From Chloroflexota bacterium (lineage in GTDB: Bacteria; Chloroflexota; Anaerolineae; Promineifilales; Promineifilaceae), in contig JAGNBF010000019.1 in assembly GCA_018004935.1 (NCBI GenBank), positions 1,634 to 58,165 of the forward strand: DNA of 56,532 nt, given 5' to 3'. Both the position numbers and the translations under genes were made by a program. Below the pieces are notes generated by a model. That model saw only the letters and a list, made by a program, of their open reading frames with translations, ran no database searches and was not told where the DNA came from. Numbering within the stretch: position 1 is the stretch's first letter; every line of letters begins with the position of its first letter. This document shows positions 18,005 to 56,532 of the stretch, piece by piece.

Positions 18005-19066
18005 ATGAGACACGAGTTTCCGATTTTCTTTCTACCCGACCAACATCTACACAATCCTCAAACTCAGGTTAGTTTTGGTCAATCCCAACTTAACCCGGAA
18101 CAGCCGTACCGTGCGGCCGCGACCCTCGCCGCTCTTCGCTCTTTGCCCCACATCAGAACCATTCCCCACACCCGTCAGGCCACCGACGCTGAACTCCTCA
18201 CCATCCACAGCCCAGAACTGGTTCATTTTTTGGCTGAAGCGTATCCTGAATGGGCCAGGGAGTTCCCAGGCGTAGAGTTACTCCCAGAAGCGTTTACCCC
18301 AGTGGCGGCAACTACGCGCCTACCGCGCTGGTTACCGGTTCATGCAGGGCACTATTGCCTGGATACAGCCACCCCCATCGGGCCGCACACCAATGCCATT
18401 GCCCGGCAAGCGGCCGCACTCGCCCTGGATGCGGCAGAGACGTTTTTAACCGGAGAGAACCGGCTGGCCTATGCTTTGTGCCGCCCCCCAGGGCACCATG
18501 CCATGCGCGGCCGCTACGGTGGCTATTGTTACTTTAATAATGCGGCCCTGGCCGGGAAAAAACTGGCGCAACGCGGCCGCGTTGCTATCCTCGACGTAGA
18601 CTATCATCACGGTAACGGCACCCAGGAAATCTTCTATGCCAGCGATGAGGTACTGTTCCTCTCTATCCACGCAGACCCAGACGAAGAGTACCCCTATTTT
18701 TCAGGTTATGCGGATGAGATTGGCGCGGCCGCGGGCACAGGCTATAACCGCAACTACCCCCTACCCTTGCACACAACCGACTGGTCTGTATATCGTCCCC
18801 CCCTGGAAGCGGCCCTTAACCAGATAGTGGCCCAAAATTGTTGGTGTATCGTCGTCTCGTTTGGCCTGGACGCGGCCGCGACGGATGCTCTGGGCAAGTT
18901 CAAACTCACCCCATCTGACTTTCAGCAAATGGGACAGCTCATTACCCGCACGGGCCTGCCGGTATTAGCCATTCAGGAAGGCGGTTACTCCGAAGGGAAA
19001 GCATTAGGAGAAGTTGCGGCCGCGTTTGTCTCAGGCTTAGCAACGATTAACGTTATCGAGACCTGA
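18005..19066 (+). CDS. Histone deacetylase-superfamily amidohydrolase (acetylpolyamine deacetylase-like)
   Basis: A 353-aa zinc amidohydrolase of the arginase/deacetylase fold. The charge-relay histidines are H164-H165 (RPPGHHA), the zinc ligands are D199 and H201 (ILDVDYHHGNGTQ) plus the Asp in VVSFGLDAAATD, and the late tyrosine is in QEGGY. In bacteria such proteins remove acetyl groups from polyamines, acetoin-related substrates or proteins; the Gly-rich QEGGYSEG end resembles acetylpolyamine amidohydrolases. An arginine decarboxylase gene at 54833 hints at polyamine metabolism but is distant. It carries seven GCGGCCGC octamers, the densest gene in the window. Confidence 0.9.
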   Translation: MRHEFPIFFLPDQHLHNPQTQVSFGQSQLNPEQPYRAAATLAALRSLPHIRTIPHTRQATDAELLTIHSPELVHFLAEAYPEWAREFPGVELLPEAFTPVAATTRLPRWLPVHAGHYCLDTATPIGPHTNAIARQAAALALDAAETFLTGENRLAYALCRPPGHHAMRGRYGGYCYFNNAALAGKKLAQRGRVAILDVDYHHGNGTQEIFYASDEVLFLSIHADPDEEYPYFSGYADEIGAAAGTGYNRNYPLPLHTTDWSVYRPPLEAALNQIVAQNCWCIVVSFGLDAAATDALGKFKLTPSDFQQMGQLITRTGLPVLAIQEGGYSEGKALGEVAAAFVSGLATINVIET

Positions 19067-19935
19067 GTTTGTCGAAGCCTGTCCGTTACCTTTGGCGAGA
19101 TCAACTATACGGCCAAAAAGCATAATCTGACATTTTCCCACCGTGTTGCTTTATCGCCGCGTTGGGTTTATCCGGGGCCACCCCCGCCCCCAGAGGCGGG
19201 AACTTTTCTCGGCGCGGTTTGGGGCAGACGCCCCCATACCGCGCCGGTGGGTTTCTCTCTTTCCCAATTGTTGATTAAATGATTAATCGGGTAATGAGTT
19301 GATTCGCCCATCCCCCTGCGATTTCCGATGGGAAGGGGTAACACAGGAGTGCCGGTTATCGAGCGCGGCCGCGCTCGATAACCGGCACAAGAGAAAGTTC
19401 CCCACATCTGGGGGCGGGGTTAGGGGTGAAGGAAACCCTATTACCTGACTGTTTTTTTAAACAACAAAAGGGACGGGGATGGGTCTTCAGTCTAAACCTG
19501 CTCAAGCTGTGGCCGCTAACAAAATGTCACTTTATGATCGTGGTAAGTAATCGTTCGGAAATAAGATAGGTGGCACAGTCAGGAGACCGGCCACAGCAAA
19601 TGGTTAAGTTAATAATGAAAATAACGCTACCATTTTCATCATCATCCGTGTTTCTTCCTATCCATGTTTCCACTATCCGTGGCTATTTTCGTAGGAGTTC
19701 CCCATGTGCCTTTGGCACACCAAGAGGGATGAAAATCTGTAGGGCGATTTGCCAAATCGCCCTACATTTTCGCAGGAGTTCATCACTACCGGATTGTGCC
19801 TGCCCCATCATCCTTTATACTATACTCAGCGCGGCACAGATTGGTGGCCTGGTCAAGAGGTCAGCCACAGGATGCAAGCGCAACAACTGATCGCCAACAG
19901 TTGTCTATTCCCTATTCTCTCCCAGGAGACCTACC
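19067..19935. repeat. Gene-free stretch of repeats with complete element E5
   Basis: 19185-19260 is the decayed part of one hairpin element (GGCGCGGT arms), into which E5 (19268-19467) is inserted. 19468-19560 is the TGGGTCTTCAG...TTACCACG-type repeat in inverse orientation, 19568-19603 the GGAGACCGGCCACAG repeat, and 19632-19782 an inverted cruciform repeat with GTAGGGCGATTTGCC. 19783-19935 precedes the acyl-CoA dehydrogenase gene and should hold its promoter. Confidence 0.75.
19268..19467. mobile_element. TTGT...ACAA miniature element E5 (200 bp) with a 40-bp perfect palindrome
   Basis: Ends TTGTTGATTAAATGATTAAT and TTTTTAAACAACAA. Positions 19349-19388 form a 40-bp palindrome with no loop and no mismatch, centred on GCGGCCGC (19365-19372), replacing the usual stem sequence of the family. 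The flanking bases are A on both sides. The target was the CTTTCCC/GGGACGGG loop of another copy. Confidence 0.88.
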
Positions 19936-21624
19936 ATGAAACTGTTCAACCAAACACCCCCCGAACTTGGGAATCAATACGTAGAAGACCGTGTGTTACG
20001 TTCATATTTGCGGCGGCATTTACCCGCCGACATGCTTAAACAGATAGAAACGGATTTATTCACAATGGGTGAGATGGCCGGGGGCGAGTTATACCGCCTG
20101 CAATTGGCTGATCGGCTCAACGAGCCAGTGTTAAACCAGTGGGATGCCTGGGGCAACCGGCTAGATGAGATTGAATTGACACCCCTATGGCAACGGGCGG
20201 AGAAGATTGCGGCAGAAATGGGGGTGGTCGCGGCCGCGTACGAACCCACCTTCGGCCATTACGCCCGTGCCCATCAGTTCGCCCTCGTTTACCTCTTCCA
20301 CCCTTCTACAGACGTATACACCTGCCCCCTGGCCATGACCGATGGTGCGGCTCGCACCCTGCTCCTCTCCGGCAACCAAAAACTCATCAGCCGGGCAGTT
20401 TCTCACCTCACCAGTCGCAATCCGGGCTTCTTCTGGACCAGCGGTCAATGGATGACCGAATTTACCGGTGGTTCTGATGTGGGCTTGTCAGAGACGGTCG
20501 CCAAAAAAGACGAACAAGGCATCTGGCGGCTCGCGGGGCGTAAATGGTTTACCTCAGCGGCTACATCACAGATCGCGCTGACGCTGGCGCGGCCAGAAGG
20601 CAACGGCCCTGGGGGCAAAGGATTAGCCCTCTTCTATCTAGAAACGAAAGATGACCGCGGCCGCTTACTCAACATCACTGTCAACCGTCTCAAAGACAAA
20701 TTGGGGACGCGCAAAGTACCCACAGCCGAACTGATGCTGGCAGGAACCCCAGCCGAGCCGGTCATGGGCCTTGATCATGGGGTACGCAATATCGTTCCCA
20801 TGTTACACCTGACCCGCACCTGGAACGCCGTGACCGCGGCCGCGTTCATGCGCCGAGGTATGGCCTTAGCCCGTGACTATGCCCGCCGCCGTTTCGCCTT
20901 CGGCAGTAACCTGGCAGAAAAACCGCTCCATCTCGACACCCTCGCCACTCTCCAGGCCGAAAGCGAAGCGGCTTTCCACCTCAGCTTCTTCCTGGTAGAC
21001 CTCATTGGCCGCCACGAAACCAAAGAACTCCAGGGAGATCAGACTGACTTGCTCCGCATTCTCACCTCCATCACCAAGCTAACCACCGGCAAACAAGGAG
21101 TAGCCGTCGCCAGTGAAGTGTTGGAAGCGTTTGGGGGGGCAGGCTATGTTGAAGACACCGGGCTACCCATGCTTCTGCGCGACAGCCAGGTTTTACCAAT
21201 CTGGGAAGGCACAACCAACGTATTAGCACTGGACACACTCCGAGGACTGCATGAGGGCCAGGGGCTAAACGCCCTAAAAGCCAAAATTGACCATTGTGTG
21301 CAGGCGGCACGAGATACACGGCTGGCAAATGCCGGACGCACCGCCCAACGGGCTTTGTTTAATGCACAGGCCTGGTTACAAGCGGCCGCACAACAGGGTC
21401 AACCAGCATTAGAAGCCGGAGCCAGACGCTTCGCCATGACATTGGGCCGGGCCTTGTCATTGGCCTTACTGGTGGAGCAGGGGCAATGGTCACTGGATTA
21501 TGAGCAGGATGGGCGGGCACGCGCGGCCGCGCTCCGTTTCGCCGCCACCCCCATTGACCTCATCACCGAGCTAGACGCCACCCATGCCCGTGCCCTCGCC
21601 AACGACGAAGCCTTACCCATCTGA
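19936..21624 (+). CDS. AidB-family acyl-CoA dehydrogenase
   Basis: A 562-aa flavoprotein-type acyl-CoA dehydrogenase of the large AidB group. FAD-contact motifs are visible (FWTSGQWMTEFTGGSDVG near 170; KWFTSA), and the C-terminal helical domain contains DTGLPMLLRDSQVLPIWEGTTNVLALD, where the glutamate of WEGTTN is the usual catalytic base position. Length (about 550 residues) fits AidB rather than standard acyl-CoA dehydrogenases of 380 residues. AidB protects DNA from alkylation in E. coli, but many homologues may act in fatty or branched-chain acid oxidation. ATG 19936 follows CAGGAG. It has five octamers. Confidence 0.88.
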   Translation: MKLFNQTPPELGNQYVEDRVLRSYLRRHLPADMLKQIETDLFTMGEMAGGELYRLQLADRLNEPVLNQWDAWGNRLDEIELTPLWQRAEKIAAEMGVVAAAYEPTFGHYARAHQFALVYLFHPSTDVYTCPLAMTDGAARTLLLSGNQKLISRAVSHLTSRNPGFFWTSGQWMTEFTGGSDVGLSETVAKKDEQGIWRLAGRKWFTSAATSQIALTLARPEGNGPGGKGLALFYLETKDDRGRLLNITVNRLKDKLGTRKVPTAELMLAGTPAEPVMGLDHGVRNIVPMLHLTRTWNAVTAAAFMRRGMALARDYARRRFAFGSNLAEKPLHLDTLATLQAESEAAFHLSFFLVDLIGRHETKELQGDQTDLLRILTSITKLTTGKQGVAVASEVLEAFGGAGYVEDTGLPMLLRDSQVLPIWEGTTNVLALDTLRGLHEGQGLNALKAKIDHCVQAARDTRLANAGRTAQRALFNAQAWLQAAAQQGQPALEAGARRFAMTLGRALSLALLVEQGQWSLDYEQDGRARAAALRFAATPIDLITELDATHARALANDEALPI

Positions 21625-24740: not shown

Positions 24741-24968
24741 TTACGCCATACGATGGCCCAGCCAGAAATGATGTAACAAGACATTCGCTACCGGTCGTAC
24801 CTGAATACCCCCGATCTTCTTTTCCTCGCCCAACATCTTCTTATTAACCAGACAAAGATTAGGCACGCGGCCATACTTGTTGCGGTAATAATCAGCCGCC
24901 CGGAGTAATTTTTCTTCAAAAGAACGGTTCTTACTATCATCTAGCCAGAGCATGCCTACATCTAACAT
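24741..24968 (-). CDS. Small hypothetical protein (75 aa)
   Basis: A basic-acidic soluble protein starting MLDVGMLWLDDSK, with an AADYYRNKYGRVPNLCLVN core and a QVRPVANVLLHHFWLG end. I do not recognise a named family. ATG 24968 is preceded by AGGAGATTACC, and this Shine-Dalgarno site is the terminal part of the cruciform repeat that starts at once upstream. The FtsK-like gene lies upstream on the same strand, beyond about 750 bp of tandem repeats, so co-transcription through the array is possible. Composition and plausible folding make it a likely real gene. Confidence 0.72.
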   Translation of the reverse strand: MLDVGMLWLDDSKNRSFEEKLLRAADYYRNKYGRVPNLCLVNKKMLGEEKKIGGIQVRPVANVLLHHFWLGHRMA

Positions 24969-24973
24969 GGTAA

Positions 24974-25716
24974 TCTCCTGCGAAAATGTAGGGCGATTTG
25001 GCAAATCGCCCGGACGATTTATCAAATCGTCCTACAGATTTTCATTCCACCTGGTGAGCACCCCGCTCATGGGAAACTCCTGCGGAAATAGCCACGGATA
25101 ATGGAAACACGGATAGGAAGAAACACGGATGGGGATGAAAAATGGTGGCGTTATTTTCATTCCTCTTGGTGTGCGTTCCGTCCATGGGGAACTCCTACGA
25201 AAATGTAGGGCGATTTGGCAAATCGCCCGGACGATTTATCAAATCGTCCTACAGATTTTCATTCCACCTGGTGAGCACCCCGCTCATGGGAAACTCCTGC
25301 GGAAATGTAGGGCGATTTGGCAAATCGCCCGGACGATTTATCAAATCGTCCTACAGATTTTCATTCCACCTGGTGAGCACCCCGCTCATGGGAAACTCCT
25401 GCGGAAATAGCCACGGATAATGGAAACACGGATAGGAAGAAACACGGATGGGGATGAAAAATGGTGGCGTTATTTTCATTCCTCTTGGTGTGCGTTCCGT
25501 CCATGGGGAACTCCTACGAAAATGTAGGGCGATTTTTTAAATCGCCCGGACGATTTATCAAATCGTCCTACAGATTTTCATTCCACCTGGTGAGCACCCC
25601 GCTCATGGGGAACTCCTACGAAAATGTAGGGCGATTTTTTAAATCGCCCGGACGATTTATCAAATCGTCCTACAGATTTTCATCCCTCTTGGTGCGCTCA
25701 AAGCCCATGGGAAACT
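24974..25716. repeat. Tandem array of cruciform repeats
   Basis: At least five cruciform cores of the form GTAGG-[GCGATTT..AAATCGC]-[ACGATTT..AAATCGT]-CCTAC, joined by near-identical linkers (ATTTTCATTCCACCTGGTG... CTCATGGGAAACTCCTGCG; CACGGATAGGAAGAAACACG). Basic spacing is about 107 bp, with larger composite units of about 330 bp. Linkers repeat too, so this is not a CRISPR. The long frames through it translate only the repeat. Dispersed copies: 12649-12893, 19632-19782, 42473-42705, 49646-49696, 56300-56532. Confidence 0.9.
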
Positions 25717-25721
25717 CCATT

Positions 25722-39713: not shown

Positions 39714-40196
39714 ATGAGTTCACAACCTCTTTCCCCCAGTGCTCAAAAAGTCCAAGATGCCCTGAGCCAGTTTGGTTTGGAATTACAGGTGGTCGAGTTG
39801 GCGGCGTCCACCCGCACCTCGCAGGAAGCGGCGGATGCAGTCGGCTGTAGCGTAGGGCAAATTGTGAAGTCGTTACTGTTTCGCGGCCGCACCACCCACA
39901 CCCCCATCTTCATCGTCGCCAGTGGCAGTAACCGGGTCAACGAGAAAACCATCAAAAACCTGGTCGGCGAGGCCATCGAAAAACCGGATGCTGATTATGT
40001 CCGCCAGCGCACCGGCTTTGTCATTGGCGGTGTGCCCCCCGTAGGCCACGCGGAAAAACTCCGTACCTTCATTGACGAAGATTTGTTACAGTACGAGGAA
40101 ATTTGGGCGGCCGCGGGCACACCCAATGCCGTCTTCCGCCTCACCCCGGCTGACCTGAAGACCATTACCGACGGCGAAATTATCTCCGTGCGTTAG
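39714..40196 (+). CDS. YbaK/ProX-type aminoacyl-tRNA deacylase
   Basis: A 160-aa editing-domain protein, which in this family removes mischarged amino acids (often Ala or Cys) from tRNA. Typical features are VGQIVKSLLFRG (the conserved Lys), VASGSNRVNEKTIKNLVG and GFVIGGVPPVGH near 105. Length fits a free-standing domain. It starts 3 nt after the xisI stop but shows normal GC and two octamers, so the end of the foreign patch probably lies here. Confidence 0.9.
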   Translation: MSSQPLSPSAQKVQDALSQFGLELQVVELAASTRTSQEAADAVGCSVGQIVKSLLFRGRTTHTPIFIVASGSNRVNEKTIKNLVGEAIEKPDADYVRQRTGFVIGGVPPVGHAEKLRTFIDEDLLQYEEIWAAAGTPNAVFRLTPADLKTITDGEIISVR

Positions 40197-40324
40197 TTTT
40201 CAGGGGAACTCAAAAAATGGTCAATGGTTAATCGCCAATTGTCAATAGCCAACGAAAAACAACTCACCCCCTACTCCCAACTGTTCACTGTCCACTGTCC
40301 ACTCCCTCACCTCTGGAGAATCCT

Positions 40325-41575
40325 ATGTCCATCATCCGCCCTTTGCACGAATCCGAATTTGATGCCCTGGTTGACATCATGGCAACGGCTTACCCCAGCA
40401 TGAAACTCGTTACCCCGGAAGACAAACAAAGAACAAAGGAACGGTTTCTCACCACCAATCAGGAGAGTACCATCAATTTTTATGGTCTCTTCCGAGATGA
40501 AACCTTAGTCGGAGCGATGCGTTTGCATGATTTCACCATGCAACTATTTGAGACACGCACACTGGCGGGGGGAGTGGGCATGGTAGGAACCCATTTTCTG
40601 CACAAAAAAGAGAAGGTAGCCAAGGAGATGATCAGCTACTTCCACCAACATTACCGGGAACGCGGCGCGGCGATTACCACCCTTTACCCATTCCGCCCCG
40701 ATTTTTATAACCAGATGGGGTACGGCTACGGGGGCAAAATGTGGCAATATCGTTTTTCACCTGCCAGCCTACCCGGTGGCACAGAGAAGAGCCACATTGA
40801 TTACCTGAGTGTACGTGATAAAGAAGCGGTTCTGGCCTGTTTTGACCGGTACATGAGTCGCACGCATGGTGTCATGGCCAAAGCCACTTATGAAGTACGC
40901 CGCCTGCTAGAAAACCCCGCCATGCGAATAGTAGGCTACCGGGAGGGGGAACAGGTTTTGGGGTATGTCGCCTTTACCTTTCAACCCGTACCTGGGGGCA
41001 ACTTCCTGCAAAATGAGTTGCAGATTGAGGAGTTGGTTTATGATTCGCCCCAGGTGTTGTGGGAGTTATGCGCCTTTCTACGTTCACAGGCGGATCAGAT
41101 CGGGACGATTGTATATACCAGCCCGGATCCGAACTGGCATTTTTTGTTAAGTGATCCGCGCAATGGTAGCGGCCGCATTCTCCCCTCTGTGTGTCATGAA
41201 AACGCCGCCCAGGGGCTGGGGGCAATGGTGCGTGTCATTCATGCCCGGCGTTTGTTCACCCTTTTGCCCGACCATGACTTTGGGGGGCAAACGGTACGGC
41301 TGACCCTTTCTCTACGCGACACCTTTCTACCCGAAAATGATGGCGCTTTTGTGGTACATTTTGACCGCGGCCGCGCCCAAATCAGCCCCGATGACCGCAC
41401 CGATGTTACCGTTCGTCTGGATGTCGCCAATTTTTCTTCCCTGGTTCTGGGAGCCATCACCTTCCAGGAATTGATGCACTACGGTCTGGCCGAAATTTCC
41501 CACACCCAATATGTGCCTACAGTTCACCGCCTGTTCTTCAGCGACAGCCAGCCTGTCTGCCTGAGCCTGTTCTAG
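40325..41575 (+). CDS. Eis-like GNAT N-acetyltransferase with SCP2-like C-terminal domain
   Basis: A 416-aa protein with tandem GNAT domains and a sterol-carrier-like end, the Eis architecture. The first GNAT has GGVGMVGTHFLHKKEKVAKEM (acetyl-CoA loop) and LYPFRPDFYNQMGYGYGG, where the tyrosine near the end is the usual proton donor. The chain ends in the hydrophobic LFFSDSQPVCLSLF, and in Eis the C-terminal carboxylate is the catalytic base. Mycobacterial Eis acetylates aminoglycosides and proteins; the natural substrate here is unknown. RBS-like GGAG precedes ATG 40325. Confidence 0.88.
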   Translation: MSIIRPLHESEFDALVDIMATAYPSMKLVTPEDKQRTKERFLTTNQESTINFYGLFRDETLVGAMRLHDFTMQLFETRTLAGGVGMVGTHFLHKKEKVAKEMISYFHQHYRERGAAITTLYPFRPDFYNQMGYGYGGKMWQYRFSPASLPGGTEKSHIDYLSVRDKEAVLACFDRYMSRTHGVMAKATYEVRRLLENPAMRIVGYREGEQVLGYVAFTFQPVPGGNFLQNELQIEELVYDSPQVLWELCAFLRSQADQIGTIVYTSPDPNWHFLLSDPRNGSGRILPSVCHENAAQGLGAMVRVIHARRLFTLLPDHDFGGQTVRLTLSLRDTFLPENDGAFVVHFDRGRAQISPDDRTDVTVRLDVANFSSLVLGAITFQELMHYGLAEISHTQYVPTVHRLFFSDSQPVCLSLF

Positions 41576-41618
41576 CTTTTGTGTTACAATCCCGCCATCC
41601 TCGACAAACTGGTGGTAC

Positions 41619-42317
41619 ATGGCACAAATTCGTTTGTTATACCGTTTGCAAGAGATGGACAACGACATCCGGGTAAAGAAACAACGCCTGGGTGAAGTGT
41701 TGCGGTTACAAAAAGAAGATGAAACGGTGAAAAAGGCGCGGGCGGAAGCGGCCGCGGCCGCTTCCCAGCGTGAACATTGGCAAAAACAGCGTCGCAAGCT
41801 AGAAACAGAAATCGCTGACCTGGAGAATAAAACGAAACAGGCCAGCGACCGGCTTTATTCTGGTGTTGTGAAGAATCCTAAAGAGTTGGCCGATTTACAA
41901 CATCAGATCGAAGCCATGAGTCGGCATCATGCGACATTAGAAGATACACTGCTGGAAACGATGTTAGAAGTGGAAGAGGCAGAAAAGGAGTATGCGGCCG
42001 CGGCCGCAACCCAACAACAGGTGGAAACAACCTGGGAAAAAAACAATACCGGTCTACGCCACGAGCAAGAACAATTGGCCCTCCATTTGCATGATCTGCT
42101 GGGCCGTCGCCAAGAGATGTCCAAACTCATCAAACCGGGCGATCTTACCCTGTATGACCAACTCGCCAAAAAGCAAGGCGGGGTAGCCGTCGCTCAGGTG
42201 CAATACAATATGTGTGGCGTTTGCCGGGTGACTGTCTCGGCCCAAAAGATAAAATCTGCCCAAGAAGGTGAATTGGTCTATTGCGGCAGTTGCGGCCGCA
42301 TTCTTTACGCTCCCTAA
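41619..42317 (+). CDS. Coiled-coil protein with C-terminal zinc ribbon (DUF164/CT398 type)
   Basis: A 232-aa protein, mostly coiled coil from about 10 to 170 (EMDNDIRVKKQRLGEVLRLQ, then long Glu/Lys/Gln heptads), ending in a zinc ribbon with CGVC near 200 and YCGSCGRILY. The family is widespread, interacts with nucleic acid or sigma factors in Chlamydia (CT398), and its role elsewhere is unclear. Two overlapping pairs of GCGGCCGC (41748/41754 and 41994/42000) encode Ala runs inside the coiled coil. Confidence 0.88.
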   Translation: MAQIRLLYRLQEMDNDIRVKKQRLGEVLRLQKEDETVKKARAEAAAAASQREHWQKQRRKLETEIADLENKTKQASDRLYSGVVKNPKELADLQHQIEAMSRHHATLEDTLLETMLEVEEAEKEYAAAAATQQQVETTWEKNNTGLRHEQEQLALHLHDLLGRRQEMSKLIKPGDLTLYDQLAKKQGGVAVAQVQYNMCGVCRVTVSAQKIKSAQEGELVYCGSCGRILYAP

Positions 42318-42742
42318 CCGTTGAACGACAAACCTTTGAGTCTACTGCAAAAAAACCAGGTTCTGACTAATCTAACCGTCGCTTCCCAAAAGAAAGAAAC
42401 CGGGTTTTTAACTGCTTTGACCTTTTTTCAGTGGAATCAGCCTTTGCTTACATCCGTTGATACCCCATTTTTAAAGGAGTTCCCCATGGACGGAACACAC
42501 ACCAAGATGAATGAAAATAACGCCACCATTTTTCATCCCCATCCGTGTTTCTTCCTATCCATGTTTCCACTATCCGTGGCTATTTTCGTAGGAGTTCCCC
42601 ATGGACCTACGGCACACCAAGATGGATGAAAACCTGTAGGACGATTTTGTAAATCGTCCACCGGGCGATTTACCAAATCGCCCTACATTTTCGTAGGAGT
42701 ACGGAAACAACACTGCCCTCAATTTGTCCTTCCCATCACCCC
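42318..42742. repeat. Repeat-filled spacer
   Basis: 42337-42439 is a decayed, inverted 102-bp hairpin repeat; 42473-42705 is an inverted cruciform repeat with the TCCGTGTTTCTTCCTATCC linker. The remaining 35 bp lead to ATG 42743 without a good ribosome-binding site. Confidence 0.8.
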
Positions 42743-43258
42743 ATGAGCAATCAGTCAGAATCGCCCACGCCATCATCTAATTCCCACCCTGAAACCAAAG
42801 GGCTACACCGCCATAAAAAACACCGTGCTCACCGCCAGCAAGAGCAAAACTTTTTCGTTCGTTATCGTCTGGAATTGGCGATTGTCGGTTGTCTTATTTT
42901 TGGTCTACTCCTGCTGAGTAATCCGTTTGGCTTGATTAGCGCCACAGCGGTTGAAGCCAATACAACCACCACCAATTTCCTGCGGTGGTTGATTTTTCAG
43001 GGGGGCAGTGAATTAATAGGGGGCATCCTACTCATTTTGGGTTTTCCTCTGACACTCTTGTATTTGCGCCGACGAGTCATCCTTAACCAGCAGTATTGGC
43101 GACGCAATGGTTGTCCGCGTTGCGGCCGCGCCGACCTCCGCCGTACCAGTCGCACCCGATTCGACCACCTGCTCAATCAGGTGGGTATTCCCATCCGCCG
43201 CTACCTCTGCGCCGACTGCCACTGGGAAGGGGCACGCATTGACGAAAGCCACGTTTGA
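42743..43258 (+). CDS. Small membrane protein with cytosolic zinc ribbon
   Basis: A 171-aa protein. A His/Lys-rich polar N-terminus (GLHRHKKHRAHRQQEQN) is followed by two membrane segments (LAIVGCLIFGLLLLSNPFGLI; LIGGILLILGFPLTLLYL) and a C-terminal part with CPRCGRADLRR and YLCADCHWEG, a four-Cys zinc ribbon. I do not recognise a named family. Membrane topology places both ends on the same side, probably inside. One octamer encodes part of CGRA. Confidence 0.75.
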   Translation: MSNQSESPTPSSNSHPETKGLHRHKKHRAHRQQEQNFFVRYRLELAIVGCLIFGLLLLSNPFGLISATAVEANTTTTNFLRWLIFQGGSELIGGILLILGFPLTLLYLRRRVILNQQYWRRNGCPRCGRADLRRTSRTRFDHLLNQVGIPIRRYLCADCHWEGARIDESHV

Positions 43259-43310
43259 AGTGGCAAGTAGGCGAGTTTGCGAGTGCCGGAGCCATTTACT
43301 CACCCCCTCG

Positions 43311-43362
43311 CCACTCCCTACTCCCTACTCCCTACTCCCTACTTACCCACTCCCTACTCCCT
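43311..43362 (+). repeat. Heptamer tandem repeat CTACTCC, about 6-7 units
   Basis: CCACTCC, three CTACTCC, then CTACTTA and CCACTCC/CTACTCC-like units, ending 10 nt before ATG 43373. It parallels the CCCCA(C/T)T array at 3825, and a third tract is at 8274-8300. The preceding 43262-43310 contains GCGAGT/ACTCGC short inverted repeats. Confidence 0.82.
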
Positions 43363-43372
43363 GGACCCACCC

Positions 43373-44809
43373 ATGAACCCTGATGAATTCCGCCAACACG
43401 GCCACGACATGGTCAATTGGATTGCCGATTATCTGAGCCACCCGGAACAATATCCGGTGCTGGCCCAAACCGAACCAGGGGCGATCAAAGCCCAACTTCC
43501 GTCAATCCCCCCGGATCAACCAGAAGCCATGGCGGCGATATGGCAAGATTTTCAGAAAATTATCCTGCCCGGCATCACCCATTGGAACCATCCCGGCTTC
43601 ATGGCCTACTTTGCTAATACCGGCTCCCCGCCGGGCATCCTGGCCGAACTACTCACCGCCGCCCTCAATGTCAACGCCATGCTCTGGCGCACATCCCCCT
43701 CGGCTACGGAGTTGGAAGAGGTGACGCTAGACTGGTTGCGCCAACTGTTGGGGCTGTCCGACGAGTGGCAGGGCGTCATTACCGATACGGCTTCGATGTC
43801 GAGTCTGCTGGCCATCGCGGCCGCACGCGAGGCCACTAACCTGGACATTCGCAGTAAAGGGATGAGCGGCCGCGACGACCTGCCCCGTTTGCGCCTCTAC
43901 ATCTCCGACCAGACCCACTCCTCAGTCGAAAAAGGGGCCATCACCCTGGGGCTGGGGCAGGAAAATGTGGTCAAAATCCCTGGCAACGATGCCTTCCAGA
44001 TGCCGGTAGATGAATTGGAAAGTGCGATTCAGACCGATATTGCCGCCGGGTATCGCCCCTTTTTTGTTTGTGCCACGGTGGGCACAACCTCAACCACCAG
44101 CGTGGACCCGGTTCCGGCGATTGCCGAGGTAACGGCCCGGTATGGGTTGTGGTTGCATGTGGATGGAGCGTATGGTGGCGCGGCCGCGATCCTGCCTGAT
44201 AAACGTCACCTTCTGGCCGGAACCGACCAGGCCGATTCCTTCGTCGTCAACCCCCACAAATGGCTTCTCACCCCCATGGACTGTAGCACCCTGTACGTCC
44301 GTCGCGCCGCCATCCTCAAAAACGCCTTCAGCATCCTGCCCGAATATCTCCGCAGTGCCGAAACCGATGCCAATGCGGTCATTAACTACATGGATTACGG
44401 CGTGCAATTAGGTCGCCGTTTCCGTGCCCTGAAATTGTGGTTTGTTTTGCGCAGTTATGGCAGTGAGGGGTTACAACAAGTTTTACGCGAACATATTCGG
44501 CTGGCGCAGGAATTTGCCGGTTGGATTGACGCTTCCCCAAATTTTGAGCGTCTGGCCCCTACCCCTTTCAGCACCGTCTGTTTCCGCGCCCACCCCATTG
44601 GCCTGGATGATGACGAGGCCCTGAACCGTCTCAATGAAACGTTGATGAACGGGGTGAACAATCGCGGGCAGGTGTTTTTGTCGCACACAAAACTACGCGG
44701 CCGCTACACCATCCGCCTGGCGATTGGCAACCTGTACACTGGAGCGGAACAGATCGCGGCCGCGTGGGAGCAGTTACAAAACGAGTTAGCCGTCATCAGT
44801 AAACAGTAG
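43373..44809 (+). CDS. Aromatic-L-amino-acid decarboxylase family (PLP-dependent)
   Basis: A 478-aa group II decarboxylase. Motifs: HPGFMAYFANTGSPPGIL near 62, TDTASMSSLLAI (PLP phosphate binding), LHVDGAYGGAAAI (the Asp bonding the pyridine nitrogen) and NPHKWLLTPMDCS, whose Lys forms the PLP Schiff base. Substrates of close families are dopa, 5-HTP, tryptophan and phenylalanine; which one fits cannot be read. ATG 43373 is the family-like start (MNPDEFRQHGHDMVNWIADY); the frame is open upstream through a heptamer array. Five octamers lie in the gene. Confidence 0.92.
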   Translation: MNPDEFRQHGHDMVNWIADYLSHPEQYPVLAQTEPGAIKAQLPSIPPDQPEAMAAIWQDFQKIILPGITHWNHPGFMAYFANTGSPPGILAELLTAALNVNAMLWRTSPSATELEEVTLDWLRQLLGLSDEWQGVITDTASMSSLLAIAAAREATNLDIRSKGMSGRDDLPRLRLYISDQTHSSVEKGAITLGLGQENVVKIPGNDAFQMPVDELESAIQTDIAAGYRPFFVCATVGTTSTTSVDPVPAIAEVTARYGLWLHVDGAYGGAAAILPDKRHLLAGTDQADSFVVNPHKWLLTPMDCSTLYVRRAAILKNAFSILPEYLRSAETDANAVINYMDYGVQLGRRFRALKLWFVLRSYGSEGLQQVLREHIRLAQEFAGWIDASPNFERLAPTPFSTVCFRAHPIGLDDDEALNRLNETLMNGVNNRGQVFLSHTKLRGRYTIRLAIGNLYTGAEQIAAAWEQLQNELAVISKQ

Positions 44810-56293: not shown

Positions 56294-56532
56294 AAGGTTC
56301 TCCTGCGAAAATAATCACTGATTAAAAAAACACGGATGGGAAGGAACACGGATAGGAATGAAAAATGGTGGCGTTATTTTCATTCCTCTTAGTGTGCGTT
56401 CCGTCCATGGGGAACTCCTACGAAAATGTAGGGCGATTTGGCAAATCGCCCGGTGGACGATTTACAAAATCGTCCTACAAATTTTCATTCCTCTTGGTGT
56501 GCCGTAGGCTCATGGGGAACTCCTACGAAAAT
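56294..56532. repeat. Cruciform repeat unit running off the window end
   Basis: CTCCTGCGAAAATAA joins directly to the arginine decarboxylase start; then an ACACGGATGGGAAGGAACACGG linker, GTAGGGCGATTTGGC core (56428-56479) and the start of another unit at the last bases. Same family as 24974-25716. Confidence 0.85.

Follow-up and report, generated by a model that had tools for sequence, protein, structure and literature searches.

The exact 40-bp palindrome found in the analysed stretch of DNA (56,532 bp, hereafter the window) forms the tip of the hairpin in a miniature inverted-repeat element that lies in intergenic DNA and is often nested in other inverted repeats (Table 1). Its perfection is likely kept by template switching at the DNA level, and the octamer at its centre, GCGGCCGC, would be maintained separately. 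As the preliminary description had stated, the palindrome consists of GTGCCGGTTATCGAGCGCGG followed directly by its own exact reverse complement and is centred on the octamer. By a hand estimate, a perfect palindrome of this length would arise by chance anywhere in 56.5 kb with a probability of about 56,532 x 4^-20 = 5e-8. The single strand folds into an 18-bp stem with a 4-nt GGCC loop, in register with the tips of sister elements, and the term "loopless" formerly applied to it is a matter of register, because the GGCC loop is self-complementary. In the sister tips the same shell holds other 18-bp stems, with 4-nt loops that are not self-complementary, which confirms the earlier remark that sister elements carry a different hairpin at this place.

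Table 1. Features of the palindrome locus (positions in the window)
Feature	Position	Strand	Remarks
Upstream gene, histone-deacetylase domain protein (PF00850)	18005..19066	+	
E-type repeat, left half	19161..19267	-	Interrupted by the A-type element; own tip hairpin at ~19209-19247
Full-length A-type element, 200 bp	19268..19467	+	Imperfect terminal inverted repeats TTGTTGATTAAATGATTAATCGGGTAAT / ATTACCTGACTGTTTTTTTAAACAACAA; long hairpin on either strand
40-bp perfect palindrome, tip of the A-type element	19349..19388	.	18-bp stem, 4-nt GGCC loop
GCGGCCGC octamer at tip	19365..19372	.	1 of 12,040 genome copies
Conserved 3' shell AGAGAAAGTTCCCC...GGGGGCGGGGTTAGGGGTG	19389..19431	+	Common to sister elements
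E-type repeat, right half	19468..19541	-	Joined to the left half in L012, L020, L024, L010 and others
Downstream gene, acyl-CoA dehydrogenase / AidB-like	19936..21624	+	

Structure and distribution of the repeat family

The genome of origin (G000; 7.98 Mb in 229 contigs, 96.6% complete) was searched for further copies of the repeat. At least 40 were recovered by BLAST, and with a covariance model based on 40 of these about 90 distinct copies were identified; the model returned 147 matches, since many copies match on both strands. The search for the same stem elsewhere in the genome, proposed in the preliminary description, was thus positive, the tip being carried by about 90 copies. Among 38 relatives from the same family, order and class, a single weak match to the repeat (33 bits) was obtained. 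Also, scans for the palindrome pattern in contigs of the named genomes and in viral contigs gave no match, so that the tip is not known outside its own genome. The weak match, in another genus of the same family (L047, contig C31 of G011, positions ~1513-1555), corresponds to a hairpin, GGGCAATTTCGGGCGC-GTCT-GCGCCCGAAATTGCCC, resembling the H and F stems; its sequence suggests that the hairpin superfamily may be wider than this species.

Alignment of the copies, which were oriented by the conserved 3' shell, defines an element of 200 bp whose centre is strongly conserved and whose ends are imperfect inverted repeats. The whole element folds as one long hairpin on each strand (z -7.4 and -8.3). 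Full-length shells (n = 33) end in TTGTT...AACAA. The same shell holds at least 8 other types of stem, and the same tip sits in different outer shells. Resembling MITEs, the elements are short, non-coding and bounded by terminal inverted repeats, occur in many dispersed copies, and have target sites that are also found uninterrupted. They presumably spread by transposition; in the listed flanks of the full-length shells no consistent target-site duplication was seen, and one direct repeat of 12-13 bp occurs at L040.

Insertion into other palindromic sequences is frequent. In 18 of the 33 full-length shells, the abutting flanks are complementary over 7 bp or more, as compared to 3.8 when the flanks are re-paired at random, and abutting inverted repeats of that length occur at 0.6% of random genomic points. 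In the window, the A-type element splits a hairpin repeat of the E type whose two halves are contiguous at several other loci (Table 1). The proteins adjoining the palindrome have ~70% identity to those of uncultured Anaerolineae, Ardenticatenaceae and Promineifilum-like Chloroflexota, which places the host in the Chloroflexota. In the named relatives the histone-deacetylase and acyl-CoA dehydrogenase genes were not found in synteny, so that these genomes provide no orthologous empty locus.

Two further regions of the window (24936-25718 and 56376-56520) contain tandem arrays of another hairpin repeat with TGTAGGGCGATTT...AAATCGTCCTACA, with spacings of 102 and 217 bp. This repeat is the insertion site of A/F shells in L028, L084 and L103.

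The octamer as a highly iterated palindrome

The octamer GCGGCCGC is present in 89 copies in the window, where 1.35 would be expected, and in 12,040 copies in the whole genome (~1,500 per Mb), against 2 occurrences of the reversed control. In a 1.33 Mb sample of the genome its one-mismatch neighbours number 0-55 each, compared to 2,018 copies of the octamer itself. Open reading frames contain it at 1.83 per kb, mostly in phase 0; outside them its density is 0.94 per kb. Given this great genome-wide excess over both expectation and neighbours, GCGGCCGC is a genuine highly iterated palindrome in a non-cyanobacterial genome. Only one of the relatives, G016, is equally clean (1,462 octamers versus 2 of the control); in G005 the corresponding counts are 1,959 and 248. 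Cyanobacterial HIP1 occurs at 300-2,700 per Mb (PMC4390886). The present octamer shares with it the octameric palindromic form, a density within the same range and the depletion of one-mismatch neighbours, and differs from it in sequence and in its non-cyanobacterial host (PMC4390886).

In the tips of the A family the octamer is intact in 47 of 48 copies, with 1 of 384 octamer positions changed, as opposed to 106 of 1536 positions outside it and 19 of 384 in the eight positions next to it. The link between palindrome and octamer drawn in the preliminary description, where a shared binding protein was considered, therefore holds in the form of conservation. In control families, 40 of 380 loop positions and 6 of 380 tip stem positions were changed. 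This comparison, whose control loops come from a mixture of lineages, supports conservation of GGCC in the A tips; the constancy of the A loop could in part derive from the age of the family or from a general conservation of tips.

Covariation of the arms and inversion of the loops

Changes were read within one genome of the species. In 40 copies of the A-tip stem, 98.9% of cells are paired. Nine of the 18 pairs have changed on both sides (2.6 in shuffles) and 30 cells are compensated (3.3 in shuffles), a measure that overcounts events because the copies share ancestry. Among 56 sampled 40-mers, 17 distinct perfect palindromes were found. The stems of 8 families contain 85 matched double changes, compared with 0.3 expected for arms that mutate independently, and transversions made up 39% of the double changes compared to 14% of the one-sided ones. 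Since these are counts of cells in related copies, combined with weakly resolved trees from short flanks, the numbers show direction and not rates.

Inversion of the loop is invisible in the A tip, since GGCC reads the same on both strands, but it is visible in the sister elements. When loop orientation was counted with an oriented anchor, both orientations were present in shell F (ATTC 18, GAAT 8), in shell D (GGAC 7 and GTCC 5; GTCT 6 and AGAC 1) and in shell E2 (GTCC 9, GGAC 7). Two sisters of the F type, L018_9012 and L038_13118, have flanks that are ~98% alike and loops in opposite orientation.

Maintenance of the perfect palindromes

Template switching between inverted repeats is the most likely cause of these patterns, as arm homogenisation together with spacer inversion is its described signature (PMC8604942). 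During replication, the nascent strand would fold back or would change its template from one arm to the other, carrying any alteration of one arm over into its partner; switching across the loop would leave the loop inverted. The central octamer would additionally be held fixed by whatever maintains its numerous copies in the genome, presumably a separate force. In bacteria, template switching has been reported to favour transversions (PMC8604942), and according to published work it can both generate perfect hairpins and preserve them (PMC8794818). The present case resembles quasipalindrome correction (Abraham and Hazkani-Covo 2021, PMC8604942; Monttinen and Loytynoja 2022, PMC8794818) in the arm identity produced by single events, the inverted spacers, including those of 4-5 nt, and the transversion-rich double changes. 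That process was observed at scattered loci across strains, whereas here it is deduced from a large repeat family in one genome. The loop flips themselves could instead have arisen by cruciform resolution or by recombination between copies.

It is unlikely that the tip is the binding site of a transposase or of an octamer-binding protein, such as a methyltransferase, and that selection for mobility or binding preserves its perfection. The near invariance of the octamer within the tip and its iteration throughout the genome agree with such a role, as do the short conserved shells on both sides. However, within one and the same shell this place is also taken by other stems of other sequences, so that no specific stem sequence is needed. 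Moreover, C5-methyltransferases do not track the octamer. Three such genes are encoded in the genome and, in a comparison of C5 enzymes over 8 genomes, none follows its occurrence: G000 and G016, the two genomes that are both clean and rich in the octamer, have no orthologue in common, and a 62% orthologue occurs in the octamer-poor G013 and none in G005. A C5-methyltransferase as driver of the octamer is thus unsupported by co-occurrence.

One of the loci encoding these enzymes (L196, contig C180, positions 39817-43887) comprises a 375-aa C5-methyltransferase overlapping a 421-aa protein with no assigned family and a cysteine motif, possibly a restriction partner. A NotI-like identity for this partner, considered from the cysteine motif, was dropped as it found no support in Pfam, NCBIfam or PDB. 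Extreme avoidance of certain sites was also observed in the 1.33 Mb genome sample, which includes the window: GCWGC occurs 50 times against ~1,700 expected (relatives are near 1.0) and GCCGGC 3 times against 589, and GAGCTC, GGGCCC, GTCGAC, CTGCAG and GCGCGC are nearly absent. GCCGGC and GGCGCC are likewise missing from G016.

Maintenance of the hairpin by selection on an RNA, be it a terminator, a stabiliser of mRNA ends or a small RNA structure in which only compensated changes survive, is quite improbable, even though the strong covariation of the stem and the very stable fold of the whole element speak for it. Selection on a transcribed hairpin should spare G.U pairs and remove A.C pairs, but one-sided G.T and A.C changes are similarly frequent (47 versus 39, p = 0.45), with no bias within any gene context. 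The orientation of the elements relative to genes is also random: between tandem genes 36 copies have the same and 35 the opposite direction, and 39 lie in divergent and 34 in convergent contexts, as delimited by simple open reading frames, among them short and probably spurious ones that overlap 27 elements. The features of an intrinsic terminator were absent, given that the stem is followed by AAGAGAAAGTTCCCC and not by a T-run, and that the elements are about as frequent between divergent as between convergent genes. Also, nothing at or above the gathering score was found in Rfam, and inversion of the loop is not predicted by selection on RNA.

An SbcCD-type background had been invoked in the preliminary description, and part of this suggestion stood: SbcD (TIGR00619) has no match in the genome, although 13 of 14 control genomes were positive, and the complete sbcC (L279, contig C49; 993 aa) has no adjoining metallophosphatase gene. 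The absence of SbcD is real in this assembly; it does not explain the palindrome. That palindromes persist because SbcCD is absent and hairpins remain uncleaved is very unlikely, notwithstanding that stems of at least 16 bp are several-fold denser in this genome than in the sampled relatives, as measured on regions chosen around the A copies and the window. Most relatives have SbcD, and its presence does not track hairpin abundance among them: G005 is also without SbcD yet has few such stems (12/Mb), and G001 and G016 have SbcD and nevertheless carry perfect palindromes of 42-44 bp. The incompleteness of the assembly (see above) also weighs against this explanation, and loss of SbcCD as the cause was rejected. 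In E. coli, palindromes cause trouble, and SbcCD matters, at lengths well above 40 bp. The instability in replication formerly attributed to the palindrome is accordingly not borne out, 40 bp being short and longer perfect palindromes being present in relatives.

Finally, an error of assembly and a single recent inverted duplication are both effectively refuted, and the recent formation proposed earlier is not supported. Apart from the look of the sequence nothing speaks for either, and the ~90 related copies are spread over many contigs, have differing flanks, include the 17 distinct perfect versions and have arms diverged by ~7%; the copy in the window occupies a defined site in a host repeat that is uninterrupted elsewhere.

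Relationship to other hairpin repeats

Like MITEs and REP/BIME elements, some of which are targeted by insertion sequences at their palindromes, the present elements are short, intergenic, non-coding hairpin repeats that insert into palindromes (PMC1525189, PMC2817692, PMC3116915). Unlike them, they carry exchangeable 40-nt hairpin tips in a shared shell, and a REP-type tyrosine transposase was not found. The only match in the genome to a REP-associated tyrosine (Y1) transposase is a weak one to PF01797, covering residues 288-368 of a 388-aa protein, and an association with RAYT was consequently rejected.

The small dispersed repeats SDR1-8 of cyanobacteria, which Elhai et al. reportedly described in 2008 (cited in PMC4390886), are said to be hairpins of 21-27 nt with compensatory changes and nested insertions, one of them, SDR5, being inserted into the HIP1 octamer. 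The resemblance extends to the hairpin form, the compensatory changes, the nesting and the tie of one member to an iterated octamer, and the difference is that in the present case the octamer forms the tip of a hairpin element of 200 bp and the host belongs to the Chloroflexota.

Implications

Drive of the octamer and correction of the palindromes may be two outputs of a single peculiarity of replication or mismatch repair, the force that raised one octamer to 12,040 copies also fixing it at the tips of nested hairpins corrected by template switching; this connection is doubtful and is put forward tentatively. The presence of a HIP-type octamer at cyanobacterial density in Chloroflexota provides an independent system for the study of how highly iterated palindromes arise. 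Also, compensation in stems is usually taken as proof of a selected RNA. In the ~200 hairpins sampled here, strong compensation and loop inversions occur without wobble or orientation bias, so that replication explains the perfection of the stems better than selection does, making this a clear bacterial case of replication rather than selection behind stem perfection.
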